Shown piece by piece: positions 2,727-63,006 of a DNA stretch of 64,000 nucleotides (position 1 is the stretch's first letter; every line of letters starts with the position of its first letter). The DNA is from Metabacillus rhizolycopersici (GTDB lineage: Bacteria; Bacillota; Bacilli; Bacillales; Bacillaceae): positions 1-64,000 of the forward strand of contig NZ_JAIQUM010000012.1 of assembly GCF_020075705.1 (NCBI RefSeq), given 5' to 3'. Position numbers and translations under genes: made by a program. The notes below the pieces were generated by a model. That model did not search any database and was not told the DNA's origin. It saw nothing but the letters and a program-made list of their open reading frames with translations.

Positions 2727-2774
2727 CAAATCACCACCTTTTTAAAAGTTAAGAATGTTGCGTTTCTAGTCCTG

Positions 2775-2844
2775 TTATAGGAAACTATAAAATTCTTGTA
2801 CTGTGGATAAGCGCACGACATCTAGCTTCAGCGCTTTTGTTCTT
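2775..2844 (+). repeat. Dispersed palindromic repeat, copy A (type I, body deleted)
   Basis: The copy keeps the type I head (TTATAGGAAACTATAAAATT... with TGTGGATAA at 2802-2810) and the tail GCGCTTTTGTTCTT. The central hairpin found in full copies such as 17751-17920 is missing. It lies in the shared promoter region between acuA and acsA. Confidence 0.85.
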
Positions 2845-7734: not shown

Positions 7735-7990
7735 AATATACGAAATCGCTAAGATTGGGTTCAGTAGTGGAGATCTCCCTGTTATAGAGAGCTGATGGTT
7801 GGTGGAAATCAGCATATAGATTCTTCGTGAATTACGTCCATGAGCTTCTTTTTTGAAAAGATCATCTGCATCTAAGTAGAAAAGGACGGTTTAACCGTTA
7901 AATTACCGAGTGAGGATTTGTAGCTTACATAATCCTAAGTAGGGTGGTACCGCGAATATTTCGCCCCTTCAGTGATGAAGGGGCTTTTTG
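7735..7990 (+). promoter_or_regulatory. Tyrosine T-box riboswitch
   Basis: The leader has stem I with the conserved GAGAGCTGATGGTTGGTGGAA region (about 7786-7806), a specifier loop that exposes TAC, the tyrosine codon, at 7833-7835 (in GAATTACGTCC), the invariant T-box AGGGTGGTACCGCG at 7941-7954, and a GCCCCTTC/GAAGGGGC terminator with a T tract at 7963-7987. Uncharged tRNA-Tyr binding would form the antiterminator and let transcription reach tyrS. The specifier fits the downstream gene. Confidence 0.95.
7963..7987 (+). terminator. Conditional terminator of the tyrS T-box
   Basis: GCCCCTTC, a short loop, GAAGGGGC and then TTTTT. The 5' arm overlaps the sequence that pairs with the T-box motif in the antiterminator form. 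Confidence 0.9.
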
Positions 7991-8037
7991 GTGTCCAATT
8001 TACCCTCGCTATAAGTAATATATGAAAAAGATAAGGA

Positions 8038-8203
8038 TAAAAGCGCAAGCACCTTGATCAGCCTCAGGCAAACAAGACGCTCATGAATAGAAGGGGAAGG
8101 GTGTTCTTTACTTTCAATTCATGAGTGGGTGTCGACCCAAGATGGGATAAGCGCTGGATATCGAGCGCTTATCCACAGTACAAAAAATTTATAAATTCCT
8201 AAA
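8038..8203 (-). repeat. Dispersed palindromic repeat, copy B (type I)
   Basis: A complete inverted copy lying between the T-box terminator and tyrS. Read on the minus strand it has the type I head with TGTGGATAA (8169-8177 as TTATCCACA), the variable hairpin with CTCATG/CATGAG arms, and the GCTTGCGCTTTT tail. An extra palindrome unique to this copy, GGATAAGCGCT with AGCGCTTATCC, duplicates the head. Confidence 0.9.
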
Positions 8204-8223
8204 CGACGAGAAAAGGAGAACAA

Positions 8224-9489
8224 ATGATGAGTGAACTATTAAATGATTTACAATTTAGAGGTCTAGTAAACCAAATAACAGATGAAGAGGGCTTAACGAA
8301 AGTTCTTGAGGAAGAAAAAATAAAACTTTATGGTGGTTTTGATCCAACAGCAGATAGCCTTCATATTGGCCATTTATTACCAGTGTTAGTACTTAAACGT
8401 TTCCAACTACACGGACATCATCCAATCGCTCTAGTTGGAGGTGCGACGGGATTAATCGGGGACCCAAGTGGTAAAAAGGCAGAGCGTACGCTAAATACTG
8501 CTGATATTGTACAGGATTGGTCTGATCGAATTAAAGGGCAATTATCAAGATTCCTTGATTTTGAAGCGGAAGAGAATCCTGCAATTATCGCAAATAACTA
8601 TGACTGGATTGGTAGCCTAGATGTCATTTCTTTCCTTCGTGATGTTGGGAAAAACTTTGGTATCAATTACATGCTTGCAAAGGACTCAGTAAAGACCCGG
8701 ATTGAATCTGGTATATCATTTACTGAATTTAGTTACATGATTTTACAATCTTTTGATTTTCTCAAGCTTTACCAAAATAACGATTGTAAACTGCAAATCG
8801 GTGGCAGTGATCAATGGGGGAACATTACTTCAGGACTAGAGTTAATTCGTAAATCGGAAGAAAATGCAAAGGCATACGGATTGACAATTCCACTTGTTAC
8901 GAAAGCTGATGGGACAAAGTTTGGTAAAACCGAAGGGGGAGCGATTTGGTTAGATCGTGAAAAGACATCACCATATGAGTTTTACCAATTTTGGATTAAT
9001 ACAGATGACCGTGATGTTGTGAAATATTTGAAATACTTTACTTTCTTATCTCAGGCAGAAATTGAGCAATTTGAGCAGGAAGTAATCAATGCACCTGAAA
9101 AACGAATGGCTCAAAAGGCGCTTGCAGAAGAAGTAACGAAATTGGTACATGGTGAAGATGCCTTAGAACAAGCAATTAAAATTTCTGCAGCACTTTTCAG
9201 TGGGGATATTAAACAGTTAACGGGTAATGAAATTTTAGAAGGATTCAAAGATGTACCTTCTACGAAAATCGAAGAAGCTGAAATTAATCTAGTAGATCTG
9301 CTAATCGAGGCAAAGATTGCTCCATCGAAACGTCAAGCACGTGAAGATATTACGAATGGTGCTATCTATATTAACGGAGATCGTGTTCAAGAATTGGATA
9401 AGGTTATTTCAAATGAAGATAAAATTGATGGACAGTTTACTGTCGTTCGTCGAGGGAAAAAGAAGTATTTCCTAATTCGTTATGCATAA
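8224..9489 (+). CDS. tyrS: Tyrosyl-tRNA synthetase
   Basis: 421 residues, normal for bacterial TyrS. It charges tRNA-Tyr. The class I HIGH motif appears as LHIGH near residue 48 and the KMSKS equivalent as KFGKT near 232. The tyrosine-binding GGSDQWGN segment is near 193, and a C-terminal S4 RNA-binding domain starts at APSKRQARE. Two adjacent ATG codons (8224 and 8227) can both serve; AGGAG at 8214-8218 is nearer ideal spacing for the second. Expression is controlled by the upstream tyrosine T-box. A repeat element is lodged in the untranslated leader between the riboswitch and the gene. Confidence 0.97.
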   Translation: MMSELLNDLQFRGLVNQITDEEGLTKVLEEEKIKLYGGFDPTADSLHIGHLLPVLVLKRFQLHGHHPIALVGGATGLIGDPSGKKAERTLNTADIVQDWSDRIKGQLSRFLDFEAEENPAIIANNYDWIGSLDVISFLRDVGKNFGINYMLAKDSVKTRIESGISFTEFSYMILQSFDFLKLYQNNDCKLQIGGSDQWGNITSGLELIRKSEENAKAYGLTIPLVTKADGTKFGKTEGGAIWLDREKTSPYEFYQFWINTDDRDVVKYLKYFTFLSQAEIEQFEQEVINAPEKRMAQKALAEEVTKLVHGEDALEQAIKISAALFSGDIKQLTGNEILEGFKDVPSTKIEEAEINLVDLLIEAKIAPSKRQAREDITNGAIYINGDRVQELDKVISNEDKIDGQFTVVRRGKKKYFLIRYA

Positions 9490-13902: not shown

Positions 13903-14057
13903 TAAGAAAAGCGCAAGCACCTTGTTTAGCCTCGGGCAAATAAGCCACTCAGGAATAGACGGTGTTCTTTACCTTCTATTCCTGAGTGGCTTAGACCCAA
14001 GAGGGGCTTGGCGCTTGCGCTGGACACGAAAACTAAGTAAAAAAACTTATACTTTCC
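13903..14057 (-). repeat. Dispersed palindromic repeat, copy C (type III)
   Basis: Inverted copy. Read on the minus strand it has the type III head GAAAGTATAAGTTTTTTTAC... ending TTTTCGTGTCCAGC, an outer GCGCTTGCGC segment, an 18-bp hairpin with arms AAGCCACTCAGGAATAGA and its complement, and the tail GCGCTTTTCTTAA. It ends 27 bases before refZ. Confidence 0.9.
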
Positions 14058-14084
14058 TTTTAAAAAGAAAAGGTGGTGAATCGA

Positions 14085-17748: not shown

Positions 17749-17750
17749 TG

Positions 17751-17920
17751 TTATAGGAAACTATAAAATTCTTGTACTGTGGATAAGCGCACGGCATCCA
17801 GCGTAAGCGTCAGGCCCCTCTTGGGTCTAAGTTACTTTTGAATTGAAGGCAAAAAACACCTTCTGTTCAAAAGCGTCTTATTTGCCTGAGGCTGACCAAG
17901 GCGCTTGCGCTTTTGTTCTT
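17751..17920 (+). repeat. Dispersed palindromic repeat, copy D (type I, complete)
   Basis: A full-length example. Head TTATAGGAAACTATAAAATT..., TGTGGATAA at 17778-17786, GCGTAAGCGTC, GGCCCCTCTTGGGTCTAAG, hairpin arms containing CTTTTG and CAAAAG, GCCTGAGGCTGACCAAGG, GCGCTTGCGCTTTTGTTCTT. Confidence 0.92.
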
Positions 17921-24579: not shown

Positions 24580-24664
24580 ACCAGAAGTTGAAGGTATAGG
24601 ACATCTTCAACCTCTGGATTGGATTATTTGCCTAGGCTGATCAAGGCACTTCCGCTTTTGTTCT
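24580..24664 (+). repeat. Dispersed palindromic repeat, copy E1 (head missing)
   Basis: A hairpin of CCAGAAGTTGAAG with CTTCAACCTCTGG is followed by TTATTTGCCTAGGCTGATCAAGG and the CCGCTTTTGTTCT tail. The head is absent or diverged. It abuts copy E2 head to tail. Confidence 0.75.
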
Positions 24665-24665
24665 G

Positions 24666-24783
24666 TTATAGGAAACTATAAAACTCTTGTACTGTGGATA
24701 AGCGCACGACATCCAGCTCCAGCGCCTAGCCCCTCGGGGTCATAAGCCACGCATGAATTGAAGGCACTTCCGCTTTTGTTCTT
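24666..24783 (+). repeat. Dispersed palindromic repeat, copy E2 (type I, one arm lost)
   Basis: Type I head with TGTGGATAA at 24693-24701, then CAGCTCCAGCGCCTAGCCCC, ATAAGCCACGCATGAATTGAAGG, and directly the tail CACTTCCGCTTTTGTTCTT. The second hairpin arm and the GAGGCTGA block are deleted. Its last base falls in the stop codon of the NAD kinase gene on the other strand. Confidence 0.85.
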
Positions 24784-29736: not shown

Positions 29737-29920
29737 TCCAAGGCGCTTGCGCTTTTGTTCTCGTATCAGAATTTATAAGTTTAGGCTTCGAGAAATGTCC
29801 AGCTCCAGCGCCTAGCCCCTCTTGGGTCTAAGCCGCTCTTGAATAGAAGGTGAAAAACACCTTCTATTCAAGAGCGGCTTATGCTTGTCGGGGCTGACCA
29901 AGGCGCTTGCGCTTTTCTTA
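29737..29920 (+). repeat. Dispersed palindromic repeat, copy F (type II) behind a type I tail fragment
   Basis: 29737-29761 is a lone type I tail (CAAGGCGCTTGCGCTTTTGTTCT). At 29762 a type II copy begins with ATCAGAATTTATAAGTTTAGG and CTTCGAGAAATGTCCAGC. It holds a perfect 24-bp hairpin (29829-29852 with 29858-29881, loop AAAAA) and ends GCGCTTTTCTTA. Confidence 0.92.
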
Positions 29921-43001: not shown

Positions 43002-43004
43002 CAT

Positions 43005-43110
43005 GATATCAGAATTTATAAGTTTTGGCTTCGAGAATTGTCCAGCGCAAGCGTCCGGCCCCTCTTGGGTCTATGCCTGAGGCTGATCAAGGCGCTTGCG
43101 CTTTTCTTAA
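43005..43110 (+). repeat. Dispersed palindromic repeat, copy G (type II, hairpin deleted)
   Basis: Type II head (TATCAGAATTTATAAGTTTT, GGCTTCGAGAATTG), CAGCGCAAGCGTCCGG, CCCCTCTTGGGTCTA, then directly TGCCTGAGGCTGATCAAGG and GCGCTTGCGCTTTTCTTA. The whole variable hairpin is missing. Confidence 0.9.
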
Positions 43111-49598: not shown

Positions 49599-49617
49599 AA
49601 GTAAGTAGTTCTTTTTT

Positions 49618-49774
49618 GAAAGTATAAATTTTTTGACTTAGTTTTCGTGTCTAGCTCCAGGCGCCATCGGTTCGAGGTCATAAGCCAATGCGACAAAAAA
49701 AGTTAAAGAACAACCTTTCCGGCCGGCTCGTCTTGTGCTTGTCGCCGATAGGCGGACGCCTTGCGCTTTTCTCA
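49618..49774 (+). repeat. Dispersed palindromic repeat, copy H (type III, diverged middle)
   Basis: Type III head GAAAGTATAAATTTTTTGAC and TTAGTTTTCGTG, then CTAGCTCCAGGCGCCATCGG. The central part (about 49670-49755) is unlike other copies, with GGCCGGCTCGTCTTGTGCTT and TAGGCGGACGCC. The tail is TTGCGCTTTTCTCA. Confidence 0.8.
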
Positions 49775-49855: not shown

Positions 49856-49893
49856 AAAGAAACAACAATGTGAAATTTTGGTGTTTCTTTTAA
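49856..49893 (+). terminator. Hairpin between repeat copies H and I
   Basis: AAAGAAACAACA with TGGTGTTTCTTTT, imperfect, ending in T residues. It may be a displaced terminator of ytsJ. Copy I starts about seven bases later. Confidence 0.4.
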
Positions 49894-49899
49894 AAGATA

Positions 49900-50056
49900 A
49901 GAAAGTATAAATTTTTTGACTTAGTTTTCTTGTTCAGCTCAAGCGTCCAGTCCCTCTTGGGTCTACAGCCACTCAGGAATTGAAGGCAAAGAACACCTTC
50001 TATTCCTGAGCGTCTTATTTGCCCGAGGCTGAACAAGGCGCTTGCGCATTTCTTAA
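49900..50056 (+). repeat. Dispersed palindromic repeat, copy I (type III)
   Basis: The same type III head as copy H (identical over GAAAGTATAAATTTTTTGAC). The hairpin arms carry CTCAGG and CCTGAG, followed by CGAGGCTGAACAAGG and GCGCTTGCGCATTTCTTAA. Confidence 0.9.
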
Positions 50057-52186: not shown

Positions 52187-52237
52187 AAATGATGAGCCCG
52201 CTTATATCATAAGTTTAAACTTAGTTTGTTTATCCTA

Positions 52238-52292
52238 TCGCTCATGGAGGATACATTCTATACATGAGCGACTTATTTGCTTAGGTAGCTAC
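52238..52292 (+). repeat. Degenerate copy M of the dispersed repeat
   Basis: Only the hairpin and following block survive: TCGCTCATG, a loop GAGGATACATTCTATA, CATGAGCGACTTATTTGCTTAGG, then decay. The arms are CGCTCATG and CATGAGCG. Confidence 0.6.
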
Positions 52293-55626: not shown

Positions 55627-55686
55627 TAATATAAGGATTTATAAGTTTTGGCTTCGAGAATTGCCCAGCTCCAGCGTTTTTCTTAG
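55627..55686 (+). repeat. Dispersed palindromic repeat, copy J (type II, body deleted)
   Basis: Type II head (GGATTTATAAGTTTTGGCTT, CGAGAATTGCCCAGC) joined directly to a short tail, CAGCGTTTTTCTTA. The rest of 55490-55732 holds nothing else recognisable before fxsA. Confidence 0.8.
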
Positions 55687-62776: not shown

Positions 62777-62778
62777 TC

Positions 62779-63006
62779 GTTTAGAAAACTATAAAAATCT
62801 TGAACTGTGGATAAGTGCACGACATCCAGCGCAAGCGTCCGGCCCCGAAGCACAAGGACGTGCAAGTGCAGTCAATGCGACAGGACGTAGCGTTCTTGAC
62901 TGCCTTTTGGGTCTAAGTCAATCAGGAATTGAAGGTAAAAAACACCTTCAATTCCTGATTGACTTATTTGTACGAGGCTGATCAAGGCGCTTGCGCTTTT
63001 GTTCTT
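62779..63006 (+). repeat. Dispersed palindromic repeat, copy K (type I, with extra insert)
   Basis: Type I head with TGTGGATAA at 62806-62814. After GGCCCC an extra segment of about 60 bases (62846-62907) appears, itself carrying GCAGTCAA and TTGACTGC as inverted repeats. Then comes a perfect 23-bp hairpin (62914-62936 with 62944-62966) and the tail GCGCTTGCGCTTTTGTTCTTA. Confidence 0.9.

Follow-up and report, generated by a model that had tools for sequence, protein, structure and literature searches.

A modular palindromic repeat family in the window

The copy under study lies on the plus strand at positions 17749 to 17918 of the window, by which we mean the whole 64-kb stretch of Metabacillus rhizolycopersici DNA (64,000 nt) analyzed here, whose accA product shares 91% identity with its counterparts in Metabacillus bambusae and an uncultured Metabacillus. 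It belongs to a family of short, non-coding DNA repeats, ∼160–175 nt in length and up to ∼230 nt where a nested module is present. A repeat search and inspection of the printed copies confirmed that this family is dispersed through the window and palindromic, as the original prediction had proposed. Three types of head can be distinguished, namely type A (TAGGAAACTATAAAATTC..TGTGGATAAGCGC), type B (GAAAGTATAAATTTTTTGAC), and type C (TATCAGAATTTATAAG), and the copies and remnants, with their parts, are as follows:

2773..2842, plus strand: type A copy with the hairpin deleted; head–tail junction CAGCGC/TTTTGTTC
8035..8206, minus strand: type A, with head, hairpin, and tail, arms CTCATG/CATGAG and an altered 5' outer arm; antisense to tyrS, between the T-box leader and tyrS
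13903..14064, minus strand: complete type B, arms CTCAGG/CCTGAG; the head abuts the refZ ribosome-binding region
17749..17918, plus strand: complete type A, the copy under study, arms CTTTTG/CAAAAG
24580..24663, plus strand: partial copy, with divergent hairpin and tail, head not recognizable
24664..24781, plus strand: type A directly behind the tail of the preceding copy; hairpin without its 3' half
29738..29760, plus strand: tail remnant of an earlier copy
29761..29920, plus strand: complete type C directly behind that tail remnant, with a perfect 24-bp inner stem
29829..29881, plus strand: inner hairpin of the preceding copy, 24 bp, perfect, with a 5-nt loop
43004..43109, plus strand: type C without inner hairpin, directly behind the terminator-like hairpin of an nrnA-like gene (a call with an NCBIfam score under the curated cut-off)
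49610..49774, plus strand: type B head and tail around a divergent, poorly paired core
49893..50055, plus strand: complete type B, arms CTCAGG/CCTGAG
52236..52288, plus strand: inner-hairpin remnant without head or tail, arms CTCATG/CATGAG
55627..55677, plus strand: type C remnant, head only
62777..63004, plus strand: complete type A with a nested module, arms ATCAGG/CCTGAT
62847..62903, plus strand: nested 57-nt module of the preceding copy, two small hairpins of the ACAGGACGT kind
62914..62966, plus strand: inner hairpin of the same copy, 23 bp, perfect, with a 7-nt loop
63583..63742, plus strand: type A with a shortened loop, arms CGCATG/CATGCG, directly behind a terminator-like hairpin

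The prediction had given 14 coordinates and described the copies as sharing a head, an outer stem, and a long central hairpin, and this held for about half of them: sorted by eye, seven have a family head, inner hairpin, and tail (8038, 13903, 17751, 29762, 49900, 62779, and 63585), one (49618) has head and tail around the divergent core, and six are partial (2775, 24580, 24666, 43005, 52238, and 55627), while a perfect outer stem is confined to some of the copies and the heads fall into three types. The two perfect stems, 24 bp at 29829–29881 and 23 bp at 62914–62966, were exactly as described, and all six matched arm variants (those listed above and CTCTTG/CAAGAG) could be read from the printed copies. 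The type C copy at 43004–43109 has no element at the corresponding place in two other loci (L002 and L003). Rfam searched at the gathering threshold returned only the T-box (RF00230) in the window, with no match of the element to any curated family. The T-box leader occupies 7742–7971 and tyrS starts at 8224, and read-through of the T-box would transcribe the antisense strand of the 8035–8206 copy.

The family occurs in many Bacillus-like bacteria. A model built from ten window copies gave at least 150 matches in M. bambusae (G003; 150 of 4810 candidates scored), 111 in Bacillus sp. J37 (G005), and 100 in M. halosaccharovorans (G006), with 150 candidates scored in each of the latter two. Of 44 genomes of accA relatives, 28 contained the exact 17-mer of the tail, as did 63 of 299 genomes sampled from the order, and the reversed 17-mer, used as a control, occurred in none; the expectation of related repeats elsewhere was thus borne out by the tail motif. 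Tandem copies of this motif at regular spacing were seen at G143:C1:1027438-1027694 (∼120 nt) and G179:C1:656089-656421 (∼157 nt). No match to the 17749–17918 copy was found among plasmids and phages.

Mobility and insertion behind intrinsic terminators

Flanking sequences of 15 copies from M. halosaccharovorans and 15 from J37 were used to locate orthologous stretches in these two genomes and in that of M. niabensis (G010). Such stretches were obtained for 28 of the 30 copies and provided 63 comparisons, of which 37 were empty (a gap of ≤75 nt), 20 were filled (a longer gap, in some cases with another core), and six had no right-hand match. At least one empty counterpart exists for 23 of the 28 copies, two pairs among these 23 being orthologous to each other, and four J37 insertions (L138, L140, L154, and L158) are absent from both other species. 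The direct repeat at the junctions, counted automatically for the 37 filled/empty comparisons at 23 loci, measured 0 nt in 12, 1 nt in 10, 2 nt in 9, 3 nt in 3, and 4, 8, and 9 nt in one each (0–2 nt in 31 of 37, 3–4 nt in four, and 8–9 nt in two), with ∼10 of the 37 counts blurred because divergence or tandem copies place the gap inside the element or its tail (e.g., L132, L136, L137, L157, and one comparison each of L131, L141, and L145). The junction at L155 can be read as a 9-nt duplication, and those at L151, L148, L158, L149, and L154 are clean to the base. At clean junctions, type A begins TCGTCTAGG or a close variant and finishes GTTC, for example, filled CTTTTTAA/TCGTCC...GTTC/AGAAATT versus empty CTTTTTAAAGAAATT (slashes mark junctions); across the type, copies usually begin T[C/T]GTYTAGGAAAT and finish GGCGCTTGCGCTTTTGTTC, and the ends of types B and C are unlike these. 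The elements are mobile, their ends are well defined, and a target duplication of fixed length is absent.

Two further observations concern the class of mobile DNA involved. We rejected a miniature inverted-repeat element (MITE) of a DDE transposon, both because the junctions show no target-site duplication of constant length and because terminal inverted repeats are lacking, TCGTYTAGGAAAT and GCGCTTTTGTTC being, by inspection, not inverted copies of each other. An autonomous partner was sought among M. bambusae heads that had no counterpart among the 150 model matches listed, and those inspected (six and some others, from the listed part of 119 head matches) had no gene between head and tail in the 420–960 nt viewed; all were hairpin-deleted, shortened, or fitted with another core. 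At L087 the head continues into the leader of a gene, and no tail was seen.

The place of insertion is strongly patterned. Upstream of 104 heads of the type A class (∼9 of which carry type B sequence, with a few boxes false), we found a strict terminator in 57 cases, the tail of a previous copy in 19, and neither in 28, so that a terminator or previous tail stood directly upstream in 76 of 104 heads, compared with 75 of 4000 positions picked at random in those loci, without matching for nearness to gene ends. Many of the 28 remaining heads have, by eye, a weaker hairpin followed by a T-run. Among 20 type B heads, several of which are false box matches, the corresponding numbers were eight, one, and 11, and among nine type C heads, three, one, and five; in the antisense control, the detector was positive in 39 of 133 cases (three positions in the upstream 70 nt). 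Insertion is mostly 4–6 nt from the end of the terminator stem, directly behind a T-run that is often followed by A (as in TTTTTTA, TTTTTAA, or CTTTA), with no constant tetramer, and most elements take the orientation of the upstream terminator. In a separate count, for which genes were called by ORF length alone and copies of any type were taken if flanked by genes on either side, 91 of 104 followed a same-strand gene, and none lay inside an ORF of >400 nt. Two copies in the window are exceptions: those at 8035–8206 and 13903–14064 are antisense and immediately precede the tyrS and refZ ribosome-binding regions. The tail itself consists of a small hairpin and a T-run. Beyond what had been predicted from the window, then, these are mobile elements that insert without fixed duplication, mostly directly behind intrinsic terminators.

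Such a position could also be occupied by 3'-end structures selected by the host, that is, by accessory terminators or stabilizers of mRNA 3' ends, each kept in place for its hairpin. The location behind gene ends and the terminator-like make-up of the tail are compatible with this explanation, as is the smaller number of terminal-branch changes in the hairpin described below. However, the empty sites in close relatives (23 of 28 copies) are difficult to reconcile with it, a terminator is usually present upstream already, hairpin-deleted copies occur, and the contrast in changes is 0.4–0.7-fold in the anchored alignment and can be caused by module exchange as well. We therefore consider selection of each copy by the host an unlikely account of the family.

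Structure and exchange of the palindromic core

The cores fold better than expected by chance. RNA folds of two window copies were far below those of shuffled sequences (z −9.1 and −8.3), a third copy folded as DNA gave z −3.6, and 134 cores had a median z of −4.9, with 117 below −2. Cores of other loci, many of them in other genera, have a different sequence and still fold (24 cores, median z −4.2, 21 below −2). When 102 cores were aligned plainly, misalignment of the outer modules left RNAalifold with a weak consensus, and an anchored alignment took its place. A variable hexamer adjoins conserved parts in the inner helix of the 96 copies that carry the family hairpin. For the count of arms, these 96 were retained out of 104 full-length copies; the hairpin motif could not be located in the other eight, among which are at least three with a divergent or different core (window 49611, L097, and L086).

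The hexamer is perfectly matched in 84 of the 96 copies; counted by distinct arm combination, 11 of 23 match perfectly. Counting each of the 14 hexamer types a single time, against the partner that it most often has, gives 5.64 paired positions out of 6, compared with a mean of 3.07 and a maximum of 4.64 in 20,000 permutations. Five of the six hexamer pairs (pairs 2–6) covary above every value of 40 tree-based null replicates for the 96 copies; the sixth (pair 7) hardly varies. Weaker values were obtained for pair 16 (E 0.3) and pair 0 (E 2), and pairs 1, 7, and 15 gave no signal. The same table includes strong pairs outside the helix in nearby columns (138–149 and 221–228), a mark of block exchange, and because exchange of blocks or modules inflates covariation, covariation alone overstates the number of single compensatory steps. 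The compensatory change read from the window copies is thus upheld for five inner-helix pairs, with the reservation that exchange contributes to it and that fewer than half of the arm combinations are perfect. Paired arms are also not universal, since hairpin-less forms in which head meets tail at GCGC occur both in the window (2773–2842) and elsewhere (L219, L221, and L224), which goes partly against the proposal that structure is what persists.

A second proposal, that one arm serves as template for the other, was not supported by the mismatches. Template-switch repair of quasi-palindromes is a known process, and by copying one arm of an imperfect palindrome onto the other it could generate matched arms without any selection for structure; the perfect stems of 23–24 bp that lack the usual mismatches are what it would leave behind. 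However, the variable hexamer is flanked by two mismatches that most copies keep, A.C in 84 of 96 and T.T in 90 of 96, and copying of an entire arm would have erased them. A minority of copies lack them, the first being replaced by A-T in eight of the 96, and both are missing from the perfect stem at 29762, a copy that is not among the 96. Further, a wobble intermediate was found at an orthologous site, where L153 has a single-arm G.T variant relative to L152 and L166. A template-switch origin of the matched arms is consequently disfavored, and we regard it as very improbable.

Exchange of whole modules can be followed at orthologous insertions. The 57-nt module of two small hairpins, which take the form GCACAGGACGTGC and CGACAGGACGTCG (window 62847–62903, L148, L156, L165, and L180), is present in one species and absent from another in three pairs of loci (L148/L151, L155/L180, and L144/L198), and differs together with other changes in L156/L200 and L147/L165. 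The L156/L200 pair shows joint differences in two blocks, one on either side of the stem (CTCTAGGGTCT with TTTGCCCGAGG, CTCGAGGTCATA with GCTTGTCGGG). Core modules are therefore acquired, lost, or swapped while their site stays fixed. At L097:6102-6299, L089:11147-11340, L099:4584-4869, and L086:7290-7477, as well as in L125 and L220, the same head and tail enclose a core of quite different sequence (GATAAGTCAACATCG...CGTGTTTCCTTTATCTC).

Changes on terminal branches of the tree were fewer in the hairpin than in the remainder of the element. For 48 type A copies of M. bambusae, there were 21 changes in the 43 columns of hairpin and loop versus 205 in the 122 others (columns beyond the tail excluded); we prefer the weaker contrast (0.4–0.7-fold) of the anchored alignment, in which the hairpin had 72 changes in 59 columns versus 79 in 44 for M. 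bambusae (p 0.02), 31 in 59 versus 52 in 43 for J37 and M. halosaccharovorans together (p 0.0002), and 151 in 59 versus 165 in 43 for all 96 copies (p 0.0003). Either constraint on each copy or recent module exchange would produce such a deficit, and constraint after insertion is accordingly uncertain. Two functions suggested by short motifs were set aside. Titration of DnaA by TGTGGATAA, which is found in most type A heads (e.g., window 17749–17800) and which we take to be the complement of a DnaA box, was rejected because its columns are about as changeable as the rest of the head (1.56 vs. 1.89 terminal-branch changes per column). We also dropped the idea that the ACAGGAYGT module, presumably one base short of the published CsrA consensus, mediates CsrA-like binding.

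Candidate routes of transposition and relation to known elements

Strand-specific insertion with defined ends and no fixed duplication, together with hairpins ahead of the target and at the element's right end, fits either single-strand transposition by a Y1 (HUH) transposase or retrohoming of the kind practiced by group IIC introns. The IS200 elements of related bacteria served as a comparison. IS200 elements are described in PMC7290912 as inserting without duplication, 3' of a short target, by means of terminal hairpins. We compared 27 IS200 loci (including L102–L104, L108, L231, L233–L235, L239–L250, L253, and L254), which gave 27 left-end matches (none at two loci, two at some), three of them judged false (L104 minus, L236, and L249 at 397). 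Directly behind terminators were 22 of the 24 remaining left ends, two of these 22 following element-like tails (L104 and L254), and copies of the element adjoin two IS200 loci, L103 and L104. The ends are similar as well: The left end of the G037 IS200 reads ..TTTA/TCGAAAAG and its right end CAAA-hairpin-TTTTGACTT, whereas the element has ..TTTA/TCGTCTAGG and TCAA-GGCGCTTGCGC-TTTTGTTC, in which GGCGCTTGCGC is the hairpin, so that the layout CAA-hairpin-TTTTG recurs at both right ends, although this likeness extends over just a few bases and the IS200 boundaries were judged by eye, on features common to its copies rather than on empty sites. The IS200 subtype of G040 (right end TCGTTATTT) is less similar.

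Because IS200 shares both the niche and the likeness at the ends, we favor, with moderate confidence, a Y1 enzyme acting in trans. From the mobility, ends, and target observed here, we infer a non-autonomous, non-coding mobile element that is inserted through single-stranded DNA, strand-specifically, by a Y1 (HUH) transposase and that has kept a palindromic core, and we assign this reading a probability of roughly 0.55. The candidate enzyme would be of the IS200 or the TnpA-REP type and would recognize hairpins; the long hairpin may have been retained because hairpin-forming copies are those that spread, and the matched arms would result from module exchange together with compensation one base pair at a time. 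The element is like IS200/IS605 in having no fixed target duplication, in strand specificity, in a hairpin near the right end, in its niche behind terminators, and in the left junction and right-end layout of one subtype, but it differs in having no tnpA and no evident IS200-like hairpin at the left end, and in its long exchangeable palindromic core.

Y1 matches were present in 36 of 44 genomes, many of RAYT-like length. J37, a draft genome with insertions absent from both relatives, had no intact Y1 match, only one broken Y1 gene; G002, G017, and G025 had no Y1 match despite nine, four, and 11 tail matches; and, by eye, tail matches were missing from several genomes that do have Y1 genes. Group II reverse transcriptase, Y1, and IS110 families were each tried as the mobilizer, and none tracks copy number by eye, IS110 being uninformative since it matched in all 13 genomes examined.

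The group IIC-like alternative holds that an RNA reverse-inserts behind the terminator hairpin and is copied by a reverse transcriptase supplied in trans. The position behind terminators, the absence of fixed duplication, and the strand specificity fit this route as well, and RVT_1 matches were found in 10 of 11 genomes examined. However, the richest genome, that of M. bambusae, has only two partial RVT_1 matches, the J37 draft has none in spite of its own insertions absent from M. halosaccharovorans and M. niabensis, the T-box was the only Rfam match at the gathering threshold in the window, with no group II ribozyme among the elements there, and the element ends are without what we take to be the group II 5' consensus. 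We hold this route to be improbable, even though the target is alike, as group IIC introns insert at intrinsic terminators (PMC4424553).

If the Y1 enzyme were a resident TnpA-REP (RAYT) protein, the family could be a classical REP/REPIN set. Like REPs, the elements are non-coding palindromes, intergenic, of high copy number, and amplified by subfamily; Y1 genes of RAYT-like length are common, as noted above; and the type A left end TCGTC contains the CGTC tag named in the title of PMC3733652. Yet at 160–175 nt, with a long head and a location behind terminators, the element differs from these repeats, Y1 presence does not track copy number by eye, and a search around four RAYT-like loci (L105 of M. 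halosaccharovorans, L106 and L109 of M. bambusae, and L107 of J37) revealed no element. The RAYT-like gene at L106 sits instead among six GGGAC[A/T]GTCCC palindromes, possibly its own REP family. A classical REP/REPIN origin thus appears unlikely.

Other short repeats of Bacillus genomes invite comparison by description. The bcr1–bcr18 repeats of the Bacillus cereus group are likewise intergenic, some of them MITE-like, and their mobility has been linked to a TTTAT motif (PMC6542083, PMC3446304) that is reminiscent of the TTTTTTA/T junctions of the element; bcr1 differs in being described there as restricted to the B. cereus group. Bhal-1 and Bant-1 are also short stem-loop repeats, set apart by a length of 72–74 nt as tabulated in PMC2267715. 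A literature search that included full-text strings recognized no paper on the present family; most subscription papers were outside its scope, so this is no proof that the family is unpublished.

A bolder interpretation is that the family constitutes a distinct class of modular, non-coding single-strand element, in which the head and tail form a constant shell that seeks out the T-run of a terminator, the tail hairpin in turn offers a landing site to a further copy, letting head-to-tail arrays build up, and the palindromic core is an exchangeable cassette. We offer this tentatively, as a possibility somewhat on the doubtful side. If it were true, >100 gene ends in the richest genomes would have gained a second 3' hairpin. 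Terminators were already known as landing sites of group IIC introns, and here a non-coding element without a recognized ribozyme uses the same place; the niche common to the element and resident IS200 suggests that terminators are a general harbor for single-strand or RNA-based mobile DNA in these bacteria. Because filled and empty sites define the ends, a direct search for the enzyme that moves the element becomes possible, and the abundance of copies in a single genome provides a natural series in which to ask why a mobile element keeps a long hairpin as its sequence changes.
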